64,000 bases of DNA from Limnohabitans planktonicus II-D5 (GTDB lineage Bacteria > Pseudomonadota > Gammaproteobacteria > Burkholderiales > Burkholderiaceae_C), in contig NZ_LFYT02000006.1 in NCBI RefSeq assembly GCF_001270065.2, positions 1 to 64,000 on the forward strand, read 5' to 3'. The position numbers were made by a program, and so were the translations under genes. Positions 9,098 to 57,840 of the stretch are shown here, piece by piece. Every line of letters starts with the position of its first letter. Positions within the stretch are counted from its first letter, which is position 1. The notes beneath the pieces were generated by a model. That model saw only the letters and a program-made list of their open reading frames with translations, was not told where the DNA came from and ran no database searches.

Positions 9098-9265
9098 CAT
9101 TGATTCGGCCGTGTGAAGTTTTCAATGCCCAAAGCTGTTGTAGGTCGGCGGTCGAAGACTCCGAAATGGGCCTGTGCCGAAACCCAAAACGTCGGACTCT
9201 GCGAGTACCGACCTACCAGATGACATTTCTCACACATTTCAAACTTCAGCGTGCCGGATCAATAG
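9098..9265. mobile_element. 168-bp MITE-like element with internal REP pair (copy 1)
   Basis: The left end (ATTGATTCGGCC, then TGTGAAGTTTTCAATG) and right end (CATTTCAAACTTCAG, then CCGGATCAATAG) form ~29-bp imperfect terminal inverted repeats. Between them lie two GTAG-headed hairpins in inverted orientation with heads outward: subtype B at ~9140 and subtype A ending ~9215. A second copy of the same length, in the opposite orientation, lies at 12751-12918. There is no coding capacity. It lies between the MNT/HEPN cassette and rmlA. Confidence 0.75.
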
Positions 9266-12750: not shown

Positions 12751-12918
12751 TATGGATCTGGCACGCTGAAGTTTGAAATGAGTGAGACATGTCATCTTGT
12801 AGGTCGGTACTCGCAGAGTCCGACATGGTGGGTTTGGGCACAGGCCCCTGTCGGAGTCTTCGACCGCCGACCTACAACATCGTTGCGCATTGAAAACTTC
12901 ACGGGGCCGAATCGATAG
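12751..12918. mobile_element. 168-bp MITE-like element with internal REP pair (copy 2, inverted)
   Basis: This copy has the same length and about 85% visible identity to the reverse complement of 9098-9265. Terminal inverted repeats are TATGGATCTGGCACGCTGAA (left, continuing GTTTGAAATG) and its partner at 12888-12918. The interior holds a subtype A palindrome (12798-12824 region) and a subtype B palindrome in reverse (~12850-12875), heads outward. It sits between the tctA terminator and the H-NS gene promoter region. No coding capacity. Confidence 0.78.
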
Positions 12919-22223: not shown

Positions 22224-22247
22224 AAAGCCAAGGCCTGTGGTGTCCCG

Positions 22248-22460
22248 TAGGTCGGCGGCTTCAGCCCCGACATGAGCCTGCGCCGAAGCCCATATGTCGG
22301 ACTCTTCGAGTGCCGACCTACAAAAAAACGGTTTCCCGTAGGTCGGCGGTCGAAGACCCCGACATGAGCCTTCGCCGGAGACCGAATGTCGGACTCTGCG
22401 AGTGCCGACCTACAAAAAACCTGTCTCCCGTAGGTCGGCGGTCGAAGACCCCGACTTGGG
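22248..22460. repeat. REP cluster: C, A, B, A, B palindromes
   Basis: Between the phosphatase stop and the metY-tail fragment lie five GTAG-headed hairpins: subtype C forward (~22248), subtype A reversed with loop GAA (~22295), subtype B forward (~22337), subtype A reversed (~22388) and subtype B forward (~22430). Forward and reversed copies alternate, forming heads-outward pairs. Degenerate spacer sequence (GCGCCGGAGCCCGAC-like) continues to ~22503. Confidence 0.8.
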
Positions 22461-28359: not shown

Positions 28360-28789
28360 CTTGTCTCCGGTTCTTTTTGGAAGTGGCTGTCATTGTGCCT
28401 TTGAAGCATCGCGGCTTGATGGGTTTTGCGGCCTTGTCGTTTGGCACGCACGCTGGTGGGTGATGGCGTGCGGCGGGGACGCGCGTGCAATCGCCCACAG
28501 GGTTAGGCTTCTGTTGATTCGGCACGATGAAGTCTGAGCCGTGTGTTGCCCGTTGGGAGGATTTTGTGGGAGCTTGCCAGCCAAGCGCAAAACCTGTGCT
28601 CCACACGCGTCTGATCGCCAGCAGGGCTAGCGCCCACAAGGTGCAAGATTGAAGTCACCCTACAAACTTCACAGGGCCGGATCAATAAACGGGCATGCCC
28701 TTGTCGGTTTTCGGATTCATCCGCGGCAGTCAACTCACACATGCTGGGCTTGCCCATAATGAGCCCTCCATTGCCACCAAGGTTCCCCG

Positions 28790-29709: not shown

Positions 29710-30693
29710 ATGCACCTGATCATTCCCTACGCAGCCAGCCACGCCCTCAACGGCCCCGAGATTTGGGCCGGTTTGCAGCTGCCGAATTTGCAAGCCCTGC
29801 TGTCCCTGCTTCAGCGCCAGCAGGTGCTGCAAGGCCCTGAAGCCACAGCGCTGCACCTGCCCCACGAACGCCTGCAAGCCCAAGCCCTGGGCTGGGCCAT
29901 CGACACGGCCGCCCTGCCATGGGCCGCCTGGCACCTGGCGGGGCAAGGCCAAGCCAGTGCCGAGCCCCAAGCCTGGATGACGCCCTGCCACTGGCAAATC
30001 GGCATGGACCAAGTGGTCATGGCCGACCCAGAACATTTGCACCTGTCGGACGATGAATCGCAGCAACTGCTGCTGGCCATGCAACCGTTTTTGCAAGAAG
30101 ACGGCTTGCAAGTGACGTGGCACAGCGCCTTGCTGTGGCACGCACAAGGGCCCTTGCTGGCCGATGTGCCCACCGCCTCGCTCGACCGGGTGATCGGCCA
30201 AAACGTCAAAGACTGGATGCCCGACCACCCCGCTGCCCGGCCCCTGCAACGCCTGCAAAGCGAGATGCAAATGCTGCTGTACAACCACCCGGTGAACGAC
30301 GCCCGCGAGGCCCGCAGGCAACACACCGTCAACGCCTTTTGGCTGCACGGCGCGGGCACGCTGCCCGTCAGTGGCACGGTGGCTGCGCAGCCCTTTGCGG
30401 GCGCACCAGGTTCTGCAATTTCAGCGCCTGTCACCGTGTCTACAGCCTTGCGATCAGCTGCCTTGCATGGCAACGCGCAGGCTTGGCAGCAAGCCTGGCT
30501 GCAACTCGACGCCACGGCCGTGGCCGACTTGCTGCAACACGTCAAAGCCACTGGCCAAGGCACGCTCAGCCTGTGCAGCGAAGACGCGGCCCATACTTAC
30601 ACGGTCGCGCCTGCCGCCTGGCACCACCGGATCACACGCCTGTTCAACAAACCTTCCCCTGCAGCGGCTCTCCAAGCCCTCATCACTAACTGA
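29710..30693 (+). CDS. RpfE-type conserved protein
   Basis: This 327-residue protein begins MHLIIPYAASHALNG and contains PCHWQIGMDQVVMADPEHLHL near residue 92 and DWMPDHPAARPLQRLQSEMQMLLYNHPVN near residue 170. That resembles proteins annotated as RpfE-type or phosphoglycerate-mutase-like that sit beside recJ in beta- and gammaproteobacteria, including the Xanthomonas rpf region. No catalytic motif is evident and the function is unknown. It ends seven bases before recJ, so the two are co-transcribed. Confidence 0.72.
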   Translation: MHLIIPYAASHALNGPEIWAGLQLPNLQALLSLLQRQQVLQGPEATALHLPHERLQAQALGWAIDTAALPWAAWHLAGQGQASAEPQAWMTPCHWQIGMDQVVMADPEHLHLSDDESQQLLLAMQPFLQEDGLQVTWHSALLWHAQGPLLADVPTASLDRVIGQNVKDWMPDHPAARPLQRLQSEMQMLLYNHPVNDAREARRQHTVNAFWLHGAGTLPVSGTVAAQPFAGAPGSAISAPVTVSTALRSAALHGNAQAWQQAWLQLDATAVADLLQHVKATGQGTLSLCSEDAAHTYTVAPAAWHHRITRLFNKPSPAAALQALITN

Positions 30694-30700
30694 TCACCCC

Positions 30701-32410
30701 ATGAATTTGCTCACCCGAGATGTGCCCCCCCGCAGCGCCTGGGCGCTGGAACAAGCGGGCATCCACCCCCTGCTGGCCCGCCTGTATGCCGCCCGTGGCG
30801 TGCAGTCCAAAGACGAACTCGACGACGCGCTGAACCTGCTGCTGCCCCCTGCCAGCATGCTGGGCACACAAGAAGCCGCCAAACTGCTGGCCGATGCCAT
30901 GGCGCAAAACAAGCGCCTGTGCATCGTGGCCGATTACGACTGCGACGGCGCGACCGCCTGCGCCGTGGGTGTGCGCGGCCTGCGCATGCTGGGGGCACAC
31001 AACGTCAGCTATTTGGTGCCTGACCGCGTGGTCGACGGCTATGGCCTCACGCCCCCGATTGCCGAGCGTGTGCACCAGCAAGGCGCGGATGTGTTGATCA
31101 CCGTGGACAACGGCATCGCCAGCGTGGCGGGCGTGCAGGCAGCGCAAGCCCTGGGCCTGCAGGTGCTGGTGACCGACCACCATTTGCCGGGCAGCGAGCT
31201 GCCCACAGCCGAAGTCATCGTCAACCCCAACCAACCCGGCTGCAGCTTCACCAGCAAATCCATCGCCGGTGTGGGCGTGATGTTTTATGTGCTGCTGGCC
31301 CTGCGGGCTGAGTTGCGCCAGCGCGGCGTGTTTGACGCCAGCACCCAGCCGCGCCTAGACGCCCTGCTGCCCTTGGTGGCTTTGGGCACCGTGGCCGACG
31401 TGGTCAAGCTCGACCCCAACAACCGCCGCTTGGTGGCCCAAGGCCTGCGCCGGGTGCGCGCAGGCGCCCTGCCCCCCGGCATGGCCGCGCTCATGCGTGC
31501 GGCCAGCCGCGAAACCGCCAAGGCCACGACGTTTGACTTTGGCTTTGCCCTGGGCCCGCGCATCAACGCCGCAGGCCGCCTGGCCGACATGACGCTGGGC
31601 ATCGAATGCCTGCTGACCGACGACGCGGGCCGCGCCGACGAGCTGGCCAAACAACTGGACGCGATCAACCGCGAACGCCGCGTGATCGAAGGCGACATGC
31701 GCGAGATGGCCATGGAAATGGCCGAGTCGCTGTTTGACGAAGGAGACGAGCCACCGCCCGCCATTTGCGTGTTCGACCCGGATTTTCACGAAGGCGTGGT
31801 GGGCATTGTGGCCTCGCGCATCAAGGACAAACTGCACCGCCCCACCTTTGTGTTTGCGGCCAGCAGCGCCCCGGGCAAAGAGCACGAACTCAAGGGTTCG
31901 GGCCGCTCCATTGCGGGCTTTCATCTGCGCGACGCGCTCGACCTGGTGGCCAAACGCGCCCCGGGCGTGCTGCTGCGCTTTGGCGGCCACGCCATGGCAG
32001 CGGGCTGCACCGTGGCCGAAGAACACCTCGATGTGTTTGAAGAAACGCTGAACCAAGTCGCCATGGAATGGCTGGACGCCGCCACACTGCAACGCCGCCT
32101 GGAAACCGATGGGCCGCTGCCTGCCGAATACCGCCGGGTGGACCTGGTGGAGATGCTTCACCACGAGGTCTGGGGCCAAGGCTTTGCACCGCCCGTGTTT
32201 TGCGAAGAGATCGAGGTGGTGTCGCAGCGCTTGGTGGGCGAAAAACACCTGTCGCTCAAGATGAAGCACCAAGGCCAGCCAGTGGATGGCATTTGGTTTG
32301 GCCGGACTGAGCCTTTGCCCGCACGCGTCAAACTGGCCTACCGGCTGGACGCCGACGAGTGGCAGGGGCAAAAGCGCGTGCGCTTCCTGATTGAAGGCGC
32401 CGAGCTGTAA
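30701..32410 (+). CDS. recJ: Single-stranded-DNA-specific exonuclease RecJ
   Basis: The 569-residue protein carries the DHH phosphoesterase motifs: VADYDCDGATA (motif I), LITVDNGI (II), VTDHHLPG (III, DHH) and VALGTVADVV (IV). The DHHA1 block follows (RFGGHAMAAGCTV), then the C-terminal OB domain. RecJ degrades single-stranded DNA 5' to 3' in recombination and mismatch repair. ATG 30701 gives the normal family start (LLTRDVPPRSAWAL). Downstream lies the first tandem REP array, 29 bases after the stop. Confidence 0.96.
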   Translation: MNLLTRDVPPRSAWALEQAGIHPLLARLYAARGVQSKDELDDALNLLLPPASMLGTQEAAKLLADAMAQNKRLCIVADYDCDGATACAVGVRGLRMLGAHNVSYLVPDRVVDGYGLTPPIAERVHQQGADVLITVDNGIASVAGVQAAQALGLQVLVTDHHLPGSELPTAEVIVNPNQPGCSFTSKSIAGVGVMFYVLLALRAELRQRGVFDASTQPRLDALLPLVALGTVADVVKLDPNNRRLVAQGLRRVRAGALPPGMAALMRAASRETAKATTFDFGFALGPRINAAGRLADMTLGIECLLTDDAGRADELAKQLDAINRERRVIEGDMREMAMEMAESLFDEGDEPPPAICVFDPDFHEGVVGIVASRIKDKLHRPTFVFAASSAPGKEHELKGSGRSIAGFHLRDALDLVAKRAPGVLLRFGGHAMAAGCTVAEEHLDVFEETLNQVAMEWLDAATLQRRLETDGPLPAEYRRVDLVEMLHHEVWGQGFAPPVFCEEIEVVSQRLVGEKHLSLKMKHQGQPVDGIWFGRTEPLPARVKLAYRLDADEWQGQKRVRFLIEGAEL

Positions 32411-32438
32411 ACCGGGCAGCATCGCTTACTGCGCAAAT

Positions 32439-33454
32439 GTCGGACTCTGCGAGTGCCGACCTACGAAGGCGATGCAGTAGGTCGGCGGTCGAAGACCCCG
32501 ACGTTGACTGGCCAAGCCCACAGGCCCATGGCAAGCAGCACCGCTCATCGCGCAATTGTCGGACTCTGCGAGTGCCGACCTACAAGGCGATGCAGTGGGT
32601 CGGTGGTCGAAGACCCCGACGTTGGCTGGCCATGCCCATAGGCCCATGGCAAGCAGCGCTGCTCATCGCGCAAATGTCGGACTCTGCGAGTGCCGACCTA
32701 CGAAGGCGATGCAGTAGGTCGGTGGTCGAAGACTCCGACGTTTGTTTGCCATGTCCACAGGCCCATGGCAAGCAGCGCTGCTCATCGCGCAATTGTCGGA
32801 CTCTGCGAGTGCCGACCTACGAAGGCGATGCAGTAGGTCGGTGGTCGAAGACCCCGACGTTGGCTGGCAAAGCCCACAGGCCCATGGCAAGCAGCACTGC
32901 TCATCACGCAAATGTCGGACTCTGCGAGTGCCGACCTACAAGGCGATGTATTTGTAGGTCGGTGGTCGAAGACCCCGACGTTTGTTTGCCATTCCAATAG
33001 GCCCATGGCAAGCAGCACTGCTCATCGCGCAAATGTCGGACTCTCCGAGTGCCGACCTACGAAGGCGATGCAGTAGGTCGGTGGTCGAAGACCCCGACGT
33101 TGGCTGGCCAAGCCCACAGGTCCATGGCAAGCAGCACTGCTCATCGCGCAAATGTCGGACTCTGCGAGTGCCGACCTACAAGGCGATGCAGTAGGTCGGC
33201 GGTCGAAGACCCCGACGTTTGTTTGCCAAGCCCACAGGCCCATGGCAAGCAGCACTGCTCATCGCGCAAATGTCGGACTCTGCGAGTGCCGACCTACGAA
33301 GGCGATGCAGTAGGTCGGCGGTCGAAGACCCCGACGTTGGCTGGCCAAGCCCACAGGCCCATTGCAAGCAGCACCGCTCATCGCGCAAATGTCGGACTCT
33401 GCGAGTGCCGACCTACGAAGGCGATGCAGTAGGTCGGTGGTCGAAGACTCCGAC
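32439..33454. repeat. Tandem REP array 1: nine ~119-bp units
   Basis: Units start at 32439, 32558, 32676, 32795, 32914, 33035, 33154, 33272 and 33391. Each has a subtype A palindrome in reverse, a 12-20 base linker (GAAGGCGATGCA), a subtype B palindrome forward, and a ~55-base spacer with the core GCCCACAGGCCCATGGCAAG. The array fills the space between converging recJ and gcdH. The start of the spacer alternates between GTTGGCTGG and GTTTGTTTG from unit 3 to unit 8, so part of the array grew as ~238-bp dimers. Reading frames through it encode only repeated peptides and are not counted as genes. Confidence 0.93.
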
Positions 33455-33474
33455 ATGGGTGGGCAGAACAGCGG

Positions 33475-34659
33475 TCAGTTGGAAAACGCCGCAATCCCGG
33501 TGATGGCGCGGCCCAGGATCAGGGCGTGCACGTCGTGCGTGCCTTCGTAGGTGTTGACCACTTCCAGGTTCACCAGGTGGCGGGCCACGCCGTATTCAGC
33601 GCTGATGCCGTTGCCGCCCATCATGTCGCGGGCCAGGCGGGCAATGTCGAGCGCTTTGCCGCAGCTGTTGCGCTTGAGGATGGAGGTGATTTCCACCGAG
33701 GCCGTGCCTTCATCCTTCATGCGGCCAAGACGCAAGCAGCCTTGCAGGCCTAGGCTGATCTCGGTCATCATGTCGGCCAGTTTTTTCTGGATCAGCTGGT
33801 TCGCAGCCAAGGGGCGGCCGAACTGCTGGCGGTCCATCACGTACTGGCGGGCGCGGGTGTAGCAGTCTTCGGCGGCACCCAAGGCACCCCAGGCGATGCC
33901 GTAGCGGGCGCTGTTCAGGCAAGTGAACGGGCCTTTCAAGCCGCGCACTTCGGGAAAGGCGTTTTCTTCGGGGCAGAAGACTTCGTCCATGACGATCTCG
34001 CCGGTGATGGAGGCACGCAGACCCACCTTGCCGTGCACGGCGGGGGCAGACAGGCCTTTCCAGCCTTTTTCCAAAATGAAGCCGCGGATTTGGCCGCCAT
34101 CGTCCTTGGCCCAGACCACGAACACGTCGGCGATCGGGCTGTTGGTGATCCACATCTTGGCACCGGACAGGCTGTAGCCGCCGGGCACTTTCTTGGCGCG
34201 GGTGATCATGCTGCCGGGGTCCGAGCCGTGGTTGGGCTCGGTCAGGCCAAAGCACCCGACCCACTCTCCACGGGCCAGCTTGGGCAGGTATTTTTGCTTT
34301 TGCGCTTCGGTGCCGAAGTCGTTGATCGGCACCATCACCAAAGACGACTGCACGCTCATCATCGAGCGGTAACCGCTGTCCACGCGCTCGACTTCGCGGG
34401 CCACCAGGCCGTAGCAGACGTAATTGAGGCCCGCGCCGCCATATTGCTCGGGGATGGTGGCACCCAAGAGACCCAGCTCACCCATCTCGTTGAAGATGGC
34501 GCGGTCGGTGGTTTCGTTCAAAAAGGCGTCTGTCACGCGGGGCAGCAGGCGTTCCTGGCAGTAGGCGCGGGCGGCTTCGCTGACCTGGCGCTCGTCTTCG
34601 GTCAGTTGAGACTCGAGCTGGAAAGGGTCGGACCAGGAAAAGCGGTGACTGGAACTCAT
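33475..34659 (-). CDS. gcdH: Glutaryl-CoA dehydrogenase (acyl-CoA dehydrogenase family)
   Basis: This 394-residue flavoenzyme has [17 protein letters not shown] and [19 protein letters not shown] (FAD/acyl-CoA binding). Also present are [30 protein letters not shown], and the catalytic Glu in [17 protein letters not shown]. The match is closest to glutaryl-CoA dehydrogenase, which decarboxylates glutaryl-CoA to crotonyl-CoA in lysine/tryptophan and glutarate breakdown. ATG 34659 is chosen because the upstream extension crosses the regulator's promoter. It diverges from a LysR gene (127-base gap), the usual gcdH-gcdR arrangement, and its 3' end abuts REP array 1. Confidence 0.92.
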
Positions 34660-34786
34660 GATGGCGTCTTTCAAAAAAACAGAAGATGGCTCGATCCTAG
34701 AGTGAAAGCCGTCATTTATCAAACGATTGTTTTTCACCCAGATATGATTTTTTGTATGATCAGAAGATATCCCCCACCACCCAGCC
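34660..34786. promoter_or_regulatory. Divergent gcdH/lysR promoter region
   Basis: The 127-base AT-rich gap contains ATCAAACGATTGTTTTT near 34718 and a tandem TATGAT...TATGAT near 34743-34760. A LysR regulator commonly binds such a shared region to control both genes. No -35/-10 pair was assigned with confidence. Confidence 0.4.
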
Positions 34787-35698
34787 ATGCGCCGCAAACT
34801 GCCCTCCACCCAGGCTCTGATCTGCTTTGAAGCCGCCGCTCGGCACGCCAGCTTCACCAAGGCGGCGCAAGAGCTGGCCCTGACGCAAGGTGCCGTCTCG
34901 CGCCAGGTGGCCTCGCTGGAGGACATGCTGGGCGTGCCGCTGTTCAAACGCGGGCAGCACGGCATGCAGCTGACCCCGGCCGGGCAAGACTATGTGCGCC
35001 AGATCAGCACCCGGCTGGACGCGTTGGAACGAGACACGCTGGACCTGATGGGCAGGCAAGGCCAGGGCGAGAGCCTGACGCTGGCGGCCGTGCCCACCTT
35101 TGCCTCGCGTTGGCTGATTCCCCGCTTGCCCAGTTTTGCCACAGCACAACCGCAAACCCCGGTCCACATCGAAACGCGCACACGCCCCTTCATGTTCAGC
35201 GACTCGGGCCTGGACGCAGCGCTGTACGCGGGCACCCCTGCGCAGGTGGCGCAATGGGCGGGCACCGAGGCCACCCGCCTGTTTGACGAAGAAGTGCTGC
35301 CCGTGTGCAGCCCCGAACTGCTGGGCCAGACCCGGCCCCTGCGGCCCGAAGAATTGGCGCACTTGCCCCTGTTGCAGCAATCGACCCGCCCCGAAGCCTG
35401 GCGCCAGTGGTTTGACGCGCAGGGGATGGACGCCCCACGGGCCATGGCCGGGCCCAGGTATGAGCTTTTTTCAATGCAGGTGGCCGCCGCCCGCTGCGGC
35501 CTGGGAGTGGCGCTCATGCCCACGCTCTTGATTCCTTCGGAGCTGGCCAGCGGCGAACTCGTGGTGGCCTGCGACCGCCCCTTGCGCGGACAGCGCGCCT
35601 ATTACCTGGTGCAGCCACAAGTGGCCCAGCCCCGGCCCATGCTGGCGCACTTCAAGGCCTGGCTGTTGCTGCAAAAAGAGGTGGGCGACGCACCCTGA
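34787..35698 (+). CDS. LysR-family regulator, GcvA/GcdR-like
   Basis: The 303-residue protein has an N-terminal winged helix-turn-helix (residues 8-65: [46 protein letters not shown]) and a C-terminal effector domain with the GcvA-type [21 protein letters not shown]. It probably controls the divergent gcdH gene in response to a glutarate-pathway intermediate; this is inferred from the head-to-head placement. REP array 2 begins 22 bases after its stop. Confidence 0.88.
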
Positions 35699-35720: not shown

Positions 35721-36875
35721 GTCGGTGTCTTCGACCGCCGACCCACAAATACCTGGCCTTGTAGGTCGGTACTCGCAGAGTCCGACGTTTCTGGGGTGAC
35801 CGGTGATGTGGGTCATGGGCCTGGGGGCATGGTGAACAAACGTCGGGGTCTTCGACCACCGACCTACAAATATCTGGCCTTGTAGGTCGGTACTCGCAGA
35901 GTCCGACGTTTCTGCGATGAGCAGTGCTGCTTGCCATGGGCCTGTGGGCATGGCCAACAAACGTCGGGGTCTTCGACCGCCGACCTACAAATACATGGCC
36001 CTGTAGGTCGGTACTCGCAGAGTCCGACGTTTCCGAGGTGACCGGTGATGTGGGTCATGGGCCTGTGGGCATGGTGAACAAACGTCGGGGTCTTCGACCA
36101 CCGACCTACAAATACATGGCCCCGTAGGTCGGTACTCGCAGAGTCCGACGTTTCTGAGGTGACCGGTGATGTGGGTCATGGGCCTGTGGGCATGGTGAAC
36201 AAACGTCGGGGTCTTCGACCGCCGACCCACAAATGCCTGGCCTTGTAGGTCGGTACTCGCAGAGTCCGACGTTTCTGGGGTGACCGGTGATGTGAGTCAT
36301 GGGCCTGTGGGCATAGTGAACAAACGTCGGGGTCTTCGACCGCCGACCCACAAATACCTGGCCTTGTAGGTCGGTACTCGCAGAGTCCGACGTTTCTGCG
36401 ATGAGCAGTGCTGCTTGCCATGGGCCTGTGGGCATGGTGAACAAACGTCGGGGTCTTCGACCGCCGACCCACAAATACCTGGCCCCGTAGGTCGGTACTC
36501 GCAGAGTCCGACGTTTCTGGGGTGACCGGTGATGCGGGTCATGGGCCTGGGTGCAAGGCCCACAAACGTCGGGGTCTTCGACCGCCGACCTACAAATACC
36601 TGGCCTTGTAGGTCGGTACTCGCAGAGTCCGACGTTTCTGGGGTGACCGGTGATGCGGGTCATGGGCCTGGGTGCAAGGCCCACAAACGTCGGGGTCTTC
36701 GACCGCCGACCTACAAATACCTGGCCTTGTAGGTCGGTACTCGCAGAGTCCGACGTTTCTGAGGTGACCGGTGATGTGGGTCATGGGCCTGTGGGCATGG
36801 TGAACAAACGTCGGGGTCTTCGACCACCGACCTACAAATACCTGGCCTTGTAGGTCGGTACTCGCAGAGTCCGAC
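35721..36875. repeat. Tandem REP array 2: ten 121-bp units
   Basis: Forward subtype A palindromes start at 35761, 35882, 36003, 36124, 36245, 36366, 36487, 36608, 36729 and 36850, exactly 121 bases apart. Each is preceded by a reversed subtype B palindrome and a linker (AAATACCTGGCCTT). The unit is the reverse complement of the array 1 unit in organisation. Most spacers read GGGGTGACCGGTGATG, with GGGTCATGGGCCTG after it. Two spacers (following the A palindromes at 35882 and 36366) instead carry GATGAGCAGTGCTGCTTGCC, the reverse complement of the array 1 spacer. It fills the gap between converging lysR and acyl-CoA synthetase genes. Confidence 0.94.
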
Positions 36876-41138: not shown

Positions 41139-41238
41139 GCTGCTTCGTTATGGCTGGATCAGATTAATTGGGATCTGACCCCGTTTATGCTGCTTCGTTA
41201 TGGCTGGATCAGATTAATTGGGATCTGACCCCGTTTAT
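41139..41238 (+). repeat. Two tandem 50-bp copies
   Basis: A 50-base unit (GCTGCTTCGTTATGGCTGG..., containing GGGATCTGACCCCGTTTAT) is repeated twice with no difference, starting at 41139 and 41189. Part of a third, altered copy (TATCTGAACCCGATTTACGC) follows. It lies between the orphan Rhs core and the putative immunity gene. Confidence 0.88.
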
Positions 41239-41316
41239 GTGTTGGTATCTGAACCCGATTTACGCAGAAGTGATTTGGACATTAGGCCATGACACCGCGC
41301 AGGGCGGGCATTGTTG

Positions 41317-48942: not shown

Positions 48943-49410
48943 GTAGGTCGGCGGTCGAAGACCCCGACATTGGCCCGTCAAGCAACAACGCCCATGCCTG
49001 AACGTGTCGGCACACAAACATGTCGGACTCTTCGAGTACCGACCTACGAGGATTGGGTCGGCGTTGATCACAACCCAAGCCGCTGGGAATTCGATCGGCG
49101 TTGATCACAACCCAAGCCGTTGGAAATTAGCAGGTCGGCGGTCGAAGACCCCGACATTGGCCCGCCAAACGTCAACGCCCATGCCAGAACGTGTCGGCCC
49201 ACAAACATGTCGGACTCTTCGAGTACCGACCTACGAGGATTGGGGCGGCAGTGATCACGCCCCCATTGGATCGGCGTTGATCACAACCCAAGCCGTTGGG
49301 AATTAGCAGGTCGGCGGTCGAAGACCCCGACGTTGGGCAGCCAAGCAGCAACGCCCATGCCCGACGGTGTCGACCCACAAACATGTCGGACTCTCCGAGT
49401 ACCGACCTAC
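48943..49410. repeat. REP array 3: three B-A pairs with inserted ~36-bp satellites
   Basis: Subtype B palindromes begin at 48943, ~49131 and ~49307; the second and third have lost the first head bases. Each is followed 50 to 60 bases later by a reversed subtype A with loop GAA (last one with loop GGA, ending 49410). Between pairs lie copies of a 36-base direct repeat (TCGGCGTTGATCACAACCCA, then AGCCGTTGGGAATT) at ~49057, ~49094 and ~49270. The array lies between converging ferredoxin and ffh genes. Confidence 0.85.
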
Positions 49411-49425
49411 GAGTTGCATTGGCGT

Positions 49426-57117: not shown

Positions 57118-57309
57118 ACTTCTGAACACCCCCCAAATGACTCCCTTATTCAAGCCACACTCCCCAGCGCCTCACGGCGTTGTGCAGTGTGGCTTTCCCG
57201 CGTTCATGGTGCTGAGGAATTCCTCAACACCATGGATCGCTTTGTGCGCTCCAACACGCACCAAGCGTTACCTTTCCGTTGAGTTCTCAACTTGATCAAG
57301 GAGAAAATC

Positions 57310-57840
57310 ATGGCAACTGCAAAAAAAGCAGCAGCAAAAAAAGCTGCCCCCGCGAAGAAGGCCGCTCCGGCCAAAGCTGCACCCGCTAAAAAAGTAGCCG
57401 CAGCCAAGAAACCAGCCGCTAAGAAAGCTGCTCCGGCGAAAAAGGCTGCTCCAGCTAAAAAAGCTGCTGTCGCCAAAAAGCCTGCAGCCAAAAAAGCTGC
57501 TCCCGCAAAGAAAGCTGCTCCAGCCAAAAAAGTAGCCACCGCGAAAAAAGCTGCTCCAGCGAAAAAAGCAGCTCCGGCCAAGCAAGCAGCAGCCAAAAAA
57601 GTAGCGGCCAAAAAGCCAGCTGCCAAAAAAGCTGCTCCCGCAAAAGCCGCTGCGCCAGCCAAAAAAGCCACCGCCAAAAAAGCTGCTGCCAAAAAGCCAG
57701 CCGCCAAAAAGGCCGTTGTGAAAAAAGCTGCGAAGAAGCCTGCTGCGAAGAAGGCCGCCAAAGCACCCGCTGCCCCTGCTGCACAAACCACTCTGAATCC
57801 TCAAGCTGCCTGGCCGTTTCCATCGGCTGCCAAGCCCTGA
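57310..57840 (+). CDS. Histone H1-like Lys/Ala/Pro-rich DNA-binding protein
   Basis: This 176-residue protein is built almost wholly of KKAAPAKKAA-type repeats and ends PLAAWPFP-like (NPQAAWPFPSAAKP). It resembles the C-terminal tail of eukaryotic histone H1 and bacterial AlgP/HctB-type proteins, and should bind and compact DNA through charge. Start ATG 57310 has AAGGAG just upstream (57299). The repeated DNA makes the gene prone to length variation. A strong terminator follows at 57866-57899. Confidence 0.88.
   Translation: MATAKKAAAKKAAPAKKAAPAKAAPAKKVAAAKKPAAKKAAPAKKAAPAKKAAVAKKPAAKKAAPAKKAAPAKKVATAKKAAPAKKAAPAKQAAAKKVAAKKPAAKKAAPAKAAAPAKKATAKKAAAKKPAAKKAVVKKAAKKPAAKKAAKAPAAPAAQTTLNPQAAWPFPSAAKP

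Follow-up and report, generated by a model that had tools for sequence, protein, structure and literature searches.

What is the row of nine near-identical palindrome pairs that lies just past recJ in Limnohabitans planktonicus II-D5, and how could it have been multiplied in place? How REPINs arrive at new sites and how BIME arrays grow are unsettled questions. We analyzed the window (the whole 64-kb stretch of II-D5 DNA containing the locus) along with further sequence of the same genome (G000), of Limnohabitans sp. T6-5 (G411), and of other congeners, including those termed here G403, G407, G410, and G418.

The array past recJ

Tandem Repeats Finder (TRF), applied to the 64-kb window, placed an array at 32431-33454 with a period of 119, 8.6 copies, and a score of 1748. 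Within positions 32439-33454 we found 18 palindromes of 26 bp in strict alternation, nine of a type A on the minus strand (the first at 32439-32464, the others starting at 32558, 32676, 32795, 32914, 33035, 33154, 33272, and 33391) and nine of a type B on the plus strand (the first at 32477-32502, the others starting at 32595, 32714, 32833, 32954, 33073, 33191, 33310, and 33429). Their stems follow the scheme GTCGG-N-xxxx-loop-xxxx-CCGAC, the inner four pairs being ACTC/GAGT in A and GGTC/GACC in B, and 17 of the 18 carry the tetranucleotide GTAG, the remaining one having GTGG. Counted from A to A, the units measure 119, 118, 119, 119, 121, 119, 118, and 119 bp, followed by a final A-B pair of 64 bp. 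Alignment of the units, as the first-pass annotation had proposed, gave pairwise identities of 90-97% among the eight full ones, with 25 variable columns and no two alike; identity shows little trend with distance along the array (93.6-94.8% at lags 1-5). The nine-fold array of REP-type palindromes described in that annotation is thus confirmed, and its identity as a REPIN/BIME array is firm. A higher-order repeat of two units was considered, given that a TRF period of 237 scores 1790 versus 1748 for 119, but the flat identity by lag led us to reject it. The plasmid collection searched yielded no match.

The array does lie between converging genes, as had been noted. The upstream ORF (30371-32410, plus strand) contains recJ (TIGR00644, 457.9 bits; cut-off 396.9), and its stop codon is 28 nt from the first palindrome. 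On the other side is an acyl-CoA dehydrogenase ORF (33475-34965, minus strand), whose NCBIfam matches, including one to a glutaryl-CoA dehydrogenase model, all fall below their own cut-offs; of the two gene names first given, recJ is therefore supported and gcdH is not. By eye, the left flank from the recJ stop to the array (32411-32438) resembles the A-side end of the spacer that runs from B to A, and the right flank from the last B to the dehydrogenase stop (33455-33474) is similar to the flank after a single B REP in G403.

The repeated module is a REPIN with two interior sizes

Neighboring REPs were compared in contig C1, the 64-kb window, and stretches partly chosen for their arrays, counting gaps of up to 200 nt. 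Among 314 neighbor pairs that face outward, 275 are B-A, one is A-A, and none is B-B. The B-A gap measures 24-27 nt (89 pairs) or 53-58 nt (177 pairs), together 266 of 275, whereas the gap in facing-in A-B pairs varies from 9 to 135 nt, indicating that the stable module is B-interior-A with GTAG on the outside, i.e. a REPIN. Each module is asymmetric, made of a REP B and a REP A in inverse orientation, with ~25 or ~55 nt between the two REPs and the GTAG tags at its outer ends. The unit boundary drawn initially (A, 12 bp, B, then a conserved spacer) is consequently shifted: the 12-bp gap joins one module to the next, and the "conserved spacer" is the REPIN interior. In these terms the array comprises eight complete B-55-A modules, preceded by a lone A and followed by a lone B; its first interior occupies 32503-32557 (plus strand) and its first joint 32465-32476, the 12-nt joint being near-identical across the array and unlike that of T6-5 at the matching locus.

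Isolated doublets in the II-D5 sample (n = 24) mostly face outward (20, with 3 facing inward and 1 in the same direction). In the sampled stretches of G403, six of seven isolated doublets face inward, which runs counter to a B-interior-A module, although G403 often yields near full-length matches to the single-REPIN element, whose pair faces outward. From locus to locus, short interiors resemble one another (73% identity versus 46% when shuffled, 30 loci), whereas long interiors keep their length but drift in sequence (54.6% versus 48.1%, 47 loci); 31 of the 47 long interiors group into eight subfamilies, each common to 2 to 8 loci, and the interior of the array past recJ joined no other at a 68% threshold.

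REP abundance in II-D5 and the genus

A joint A/B pattern allowing up to one mismatch matched 2,286 sites in the 4.87-Mb genome and the reversed pattern none, so the array is not a chance occurrence. Separate counts for A (1,147) and B (1,571) were not summed, as A sites whose loop is GAA satisfy the B pattern as well. The joint pattern was absent from the 398 other genomes of the family in the draw, five of them from the same genus. A scan of 90 genus genomes for exact GTAGGTCGG-N12-CCGAC gave 1,888 sites in II-D5, 792 in T6-5, 179 in G403, and at most 8 elsewhere. These three genomes measure 4.2-4.9 Mb and many congeners 2-4 Mb; G407, G410, and G418, at 4.6 Mb, have few or no REPs of the A/B pattern.

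A single contig sampled over 400 kb contains 50 REP clusters, which cover 3.2% of the bases and total 238 REPs (types A, B, and C, and unsorted); 14 of the 50 contain at least 6 REPs, and plain extrapolation gives an estimate of ~170 arrays genome-wide. Long regular arrays are hence not unusual here, contrary to the first impression, and BIME-2 and large REP clusters have already been described (PMC2817692, PMC3733652, PMC3116915). Of 101 sampled clusters with two or more REPs, 84 lie outside simple ORF calls, 15 inside, and 2 could not be placed, ORFs mostly made of REPs having been left out of the calls. Across 159 distinct REPs the inner-stem pairs are formed in 92% of cells (shuffled-partner mean 77%, maximum 80.5%); since the difference between A and B supplies much of this signal, it indicates that both REP types keep their stem, not that many independent events took place.

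The window also includes a third REP type, C (GGCTTCAGCC core), and further arrays. The largest, 20 REPs of the A/B family at 35721-36875, lies between convergent ORFs for a LysR-type regulator and an acyl-CoA synthetase. Smaller ones occupy 48943-49410 (plus strand; 6 REPs, 53-nt interiors, long joints) and 22247-22455 (plus strand; 5 REPs of types C, A, and B). At 49058-49413 there is a 176-bp repeat of 1.8 copies in which REPs are mixed with a repeated GATCACAACCCAAGCCG motif. Elsewhere in II-D5, at C1:320800-328514, neighboring arrays have joints of 56 to 127 nt containing TTGGACTCTTCGAATCCCG-like motif repeats, and a short repeat of the CCCACAACG type lies in one of the interiors.

RAYT transposase genes

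Four Y1_Tnp genes were found in the II-D5 genome, all passing the NF047646 model, one only just above the cut-off (80.7 versus 80 bits). The gene at C16:72318-72824 lies between two A/B arrays, scores 179.7 bits with the same model, matches PDB 4er8 (TnpArep) with an E value of 7e-41, and by eye keeps the HxH and tyrosine region in that alignment; judged by these matches, it is a RAYT transposase gene related to E. coli TnpAREP. A second RAYT (C1:302565-303035) is 56% identical to it and flanked mainly by type C REPs, and no A, B, or C REPs occur within ~1.5 kb on either side of the remaining two Y1_Tnp genes. A single array at C1:171772-172636 mixes A, B, and C REPs, from which it may be that REPs of two RAYT systems share one array.

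In other genomes too, RAYTs occur together with particular REPs: T6-5 has an 83% identical RAYT with A/B REPs, strains Jir72 and WS1 and two metagenome bins have RAYTs of 58-60% with type C REPs, and one further bin has a 53% RAYT with REPs of another inner stem. Among the 26 (of 90) genus genomes examined for the A/B RAYT, only II-D5 and T6-5 have it at an identity of at least 80%; these two also give the highest GTAGGTCGG-N12-CCGAC counts of the genus scan. In G403 the best match to it is 54%, yet this genome has two arrays of 9 REPs, so an array can persist in a genome without the cognate RAYT. These two arrays speak against a strict link with the A/B RAYT, whose role in array growth is therefore putative.

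An inverted-repeat element encloses single and expanded REPINs

The flanks of isolated REPINs in II-D5 are shared and terminate in a ~30-bp inverted repeat; its 20-nt arm motif is spaced 15 bp from REP B and 21 bp from REP A. We detected 39 arm pairs in the sampled sequence, defining elements of 98 to 1183 bp. Eighteen of them measure 158-174 bp, and 12 of these 18 enclose two recognized REPs (nine A/B, two C, one A-A); 12 of the 39 measure 229 to 1183 bp and enclose 3 to 21 REPs. A, B, and C REPs are lacking from eight elements, seven measuring 171-172 bp and the eighth 179 bp, and a 98-bp element has a single C REP. The dinucleotide TA is found on both sides of 18 of the 39 pairs. Many single and some multi-copy REPINs thus sit in a short inverted-repeat element, often flanked by TA. 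An additional arm pair, ~1.5 kb apart in C1, encloses an ORF of 348 aa.

Two elements in the window exemplify the single-REPIN form, each 163 bp long and isolated. The one at 9100-9262 (plus strand) contains one B-25-A REPIN and is missing from the corresponding position in G403, where the join is nearly clean (a result obtained at one of two sites compared); the other, at 12753-12915 (minus strand), also contains one REPIN and is flanked by TA on both sides. At 28514-28685 (plus strand), a 172-bp element with similar arms has an interior that lacks A, B, and C REPs and includes a palindrome like TGTGGGAGC...GCTCCCACA. A copy of this 172-bp element is also present in the recJ intergenic region of G403 (L179 2409). 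Full-length element copies with identical ends occur in G403, T6-5, G407, and G410, and a search for the right arm allowing up to three mismatches gave 163 matches in II-D5, 50 in G403, and 23 in T6-5, with matches in 20 of 90 genus genomes.

Its inverted ends with sharp boundaries make the enclosing element a candidate MITE of the TA-target kind; TA lies on both sides in 18 of 39 cases. A DDE_3 (IS630-type) transposase profile gave no match in 5 genomes, with the control positive in 3 of 14.

Arms are found at part of the larger clusters: among 55 sampled clusters of at least 6 REPs, 11 have both arms, 8 have one, and 36 have none. Four of the 11 two-armed clusters, with up to 20 REPs, have their arms at exactly 15 and 21 bp; in most others one or both arms are further off, often by ~51 bp, as though one end REP had decayed. 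The array at 35721-36875 has a diverged right arm outside its right end (by eye). Around the array past recJ no arms were detected within 120 bp at up to 4 mismatches, so that an origin inside an inverted-repeat element would be drawn for it by analogy. We also considered whether the 55-nt spacer could be the right flank joined to the left flank of one inserted pair; by eye, at the second array its first ~19 nt match the right flank and only its last ~6 the left, and the idea was rejected. Because in T6-5 an arm directly adjoins the terminal CTAC (by eye), loss of an end half-module through short homology is preferred. The element boundaries separate dispersal, marked by the arms, from amplification, marked by the interior, so that each step becomes testable.

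The same loci in related genomes

The genus offers a natural comparison, with congeners that have or lack the cognate RAYT and with two loci that differ in copy number among three species. The T6-5 array past recJ counts 27 REPs, its joints being 18 nt long, and its array at the second locus counts 11; in G403 a single B REP lies at the recJ locus and a lone facing-in pair at the other. Among 25 congeners tested over 1.5 kb past recJ, an A/B array is found in T6-5 only and a single B in G403; no A or B REP was called there in the other 23, seven of which have type C or unsorted REPs. Given the 27-REP array of T6-5, the outcome named in the first-pass annotation as refuting its reading, one unit in all close relatives, is not seen.

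Interiors at the recJ locus are 89.4% alike within II-D5, 94.8% within T6-5, and 78.5% between the two; the corresponding values for the joints are 90.1%, 86.3%, and 44.2%. Copy number at this locus thus differs between species, and copies within an array resemble each other more than they resemble those of the other species. T6-5 interiors from this locus are nearer to those of the second array of the II-D5 window (83.3%) than to their positional counterparts (78.5%). The joints of the two T6-5 loci also resemble each other (77.7%), so copying between loci is possible. Homogenization, separate expansion in each species, and copying between loci are all compatible with these data, which do not separate them.

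The joints provide further information. Half of the short-interior arrays (10 of 20) have a joint that looks like the beginning of the right arm run into the last part of the left one, with scores exceeding all 200 shuffles in every case; a shared CTCA lies at the fusion in some (by eye), and one joint contains the whole left arm plus 12 further nt. For the short class, these arm-end joints point to local duplication after insertion. Among 38 long-interior arrays only one has an arm-derived joint above its shuffles, and the joint of the array past recJ is not arm-derived.

Origin of the array

Taken as a whole, the array is probably a tandemly expanded Limnohabitans REPIN (BIME), spread by its RAYT, dispersed with an enclosing element, and then enlarged by tandem duplication and recombination, a mechanism that in part we infer. 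The RAYT would recognize folded GTAG-tagged hairpins on single-stranded DNA, cut nearby, and keep REPINs spreading. Single REPINs may also have been moved to new intergenic sites by some transposase, as cargo of the inverted-repeat element. A settled REPIN, with some flanking DNA, could then have been duplicated in tandem via slippage or short-homology joining, and the array might have grown, shrunk, and been homogenized through unequal recombination. The flat identity along the array and the lack of a DDE_3 match in 5 genomes speak against this account. Most likely, it is selfish DNA tolerated at gene ends; putative effects on supercoiling or on the 3' ends of RNA are possible. More tentatively, and with somewhat less than even confidence, we propose a mobile element of two layers: single REPINs would be dispersed by the TA-target inverted-repeat element, inside which the RAYT system would afterwards multiply them, enlarging the element from 163 bp to more than 1 kb. 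The array past recJ would then be a late, arm-less stage, and G403, having presumably lost the RAYT, would keep scattered single elements, a few small arrays, and remnants.

The first alternative is direct production of the array by the RAYT, which might copy cut single strands at the REPs or join them anew, so that neither slippage nor recombination would be needed. The cognate gene is present in the two genomes richest in REPs, the largest cluster in the 152 kb sampled from G403 has only 4 REPs, and Nunvar et al. considered that differences in BIME length are unlikely to stem from recombination or slippage alone (PMC2817692). Nevertheless, the two 9-REP arrays of G403 lie elsewhere in that genome without this RAYT, though they may be old, and joints vary from array to array, some lying within the arms and one including the whole left arm, as local duplication would yield. 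We regard this alternative as possible but rather unlikely.

That the arrays are kept for a host function, as sites for gyrase or nucleoid proteins or for 3' end protection or termination between convergent genes, appears improbable. Among the 55 arrays with at least 6 REPs, a simple ORF caller placed 50 between ORFs and 3 inside, with 2 not placed, and 19 of the 50 lie between convergent ORFs, compared with 82 of 345 background gaps, a mild enrichment (Fisher p 0.038). E. coli BIME-2 binds gyrase (PMC2817692), and two species have arrays at the same two loci. However, arrays also occur between codirectional (24; background 182) and divergent ORFs (7; background 81, a deficit that is not significant, p 0.15), avoidance of promoters would produce the same orientation bias without any function, and most of the 90 congeners have no or almost no A/B REPs.

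The first-pass annotation suggested that each unit could fold into a compact RNA or DNA structure, given the short palindromes in its spacer; in this reading the spacer would be the working part. Two REPIN modules and one unit in its original frame indeed fold as DNA better than shuffled sequences (z -3.1 to -4.8), but the long stems in these folds are the REPs. The 47 long interiors fold no better than chance (mean z -0.32, versus -0.24 for 60 random genomic 55-mers), as do the 30 short ones (mean z -0.13), no Rfam family reached threshold in the 64-kb window, and the wide differences among long interiors from locus to locus are a further argument against it. By folding, the spacer is thus not structured, and this explanation is very improbable. 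As to an assembly artefact, at least 4 of the 152 contigs of the draft begin in arrays (C12, C17, C32, and C34), but all eight full units differ, a longer array occupies the matching locus in the 7-contig assembly of T6-5, and a collapse could only make the true count larger, leaving this explanation a negligible chance.

Relation to known repeat systems

The BIME-2 and atypical BIMEs of E. coli (REPs Y and Z2; RAYT yafM) also have two alternating inverted REP types, tandem units, and a GTAG tag; the E. coli RAYT is likewise flanked by BIMEs, and the Limnohabitans RAYT is homologous to it over most of its length (PMC2817692, PMC8266576). REPs are about four times as numerous here as in E. coli K12 (roughly 600), and with thousands reported in some Pseudomonas the number alone is not new (PMC8266576). 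Unlike E. coli BIMEs, those of II-D5 show two interior size classes and nesting in an inverted-repeat element.

In Pseudomonas fluorescens SBW25, Bertels and Rainey described REPINs, in which two inverted REPs form the replicative unit as here, along with ordered tandem clusters that include flanking sequence and clusters beside RAYT genes; the largest ordered cluster has four REPINs, and tandem arrays of 12 REP sequences were also reported (PMC3116915). In contrast, one sampled array here has 11 B-A modules and one T6-5 array has 13, and the paired REPs differ in their inner stem. Some of the GTAG families of Di Nocera et al. also comprise thousands of units and tandem clusters with flanking DNA; long TIRs adjoin some tyrosine transposase genes, and TIRs replace or adjoin REPs, whereas a single TIR pair enclosing single or expanded REPINs is not described in the available part of that work (PMC3733652).

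ERIC, Correia/NEMIS, and RUP sequences resemble the enclosing element in being shorter than 200 bp, with inverted ends, a terminal TA, and no proteins of their own (PMC2229807); unlike theirs, the interior here is a REPIN, possibly in many tandem copies. Tandem BIMEs, REPIN clusters, REP clusters with flanking DNA, and families with thousands of REPs are hence already in print (PMC2817692, PMC3116915, PMC3733652, PMC8266576), and the less expected part would seem to be the inverted-repeat element within which some arrays may have grown. In the accessible portions of the open-licence literature we found no paper on palindromic repeats of Limnohabitans or T6-5 and no description of REPIN arrays enclosed by a TA-type inverted-repeat element, which is weak evidence of novelty.

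Other repeats in the window

Two repeats of other kinds were observed in the window. An exact 50-bp tandem duplication, with two copies at 100% identity, lies at 41139-41239. A repetitive ORF of 182 aa (57292-57840, plus strand), rich in Lys, Ala, and Pro, contains AAKKAAPAKK repeats and presumably resembles histone H1-type proteins, given its composition.
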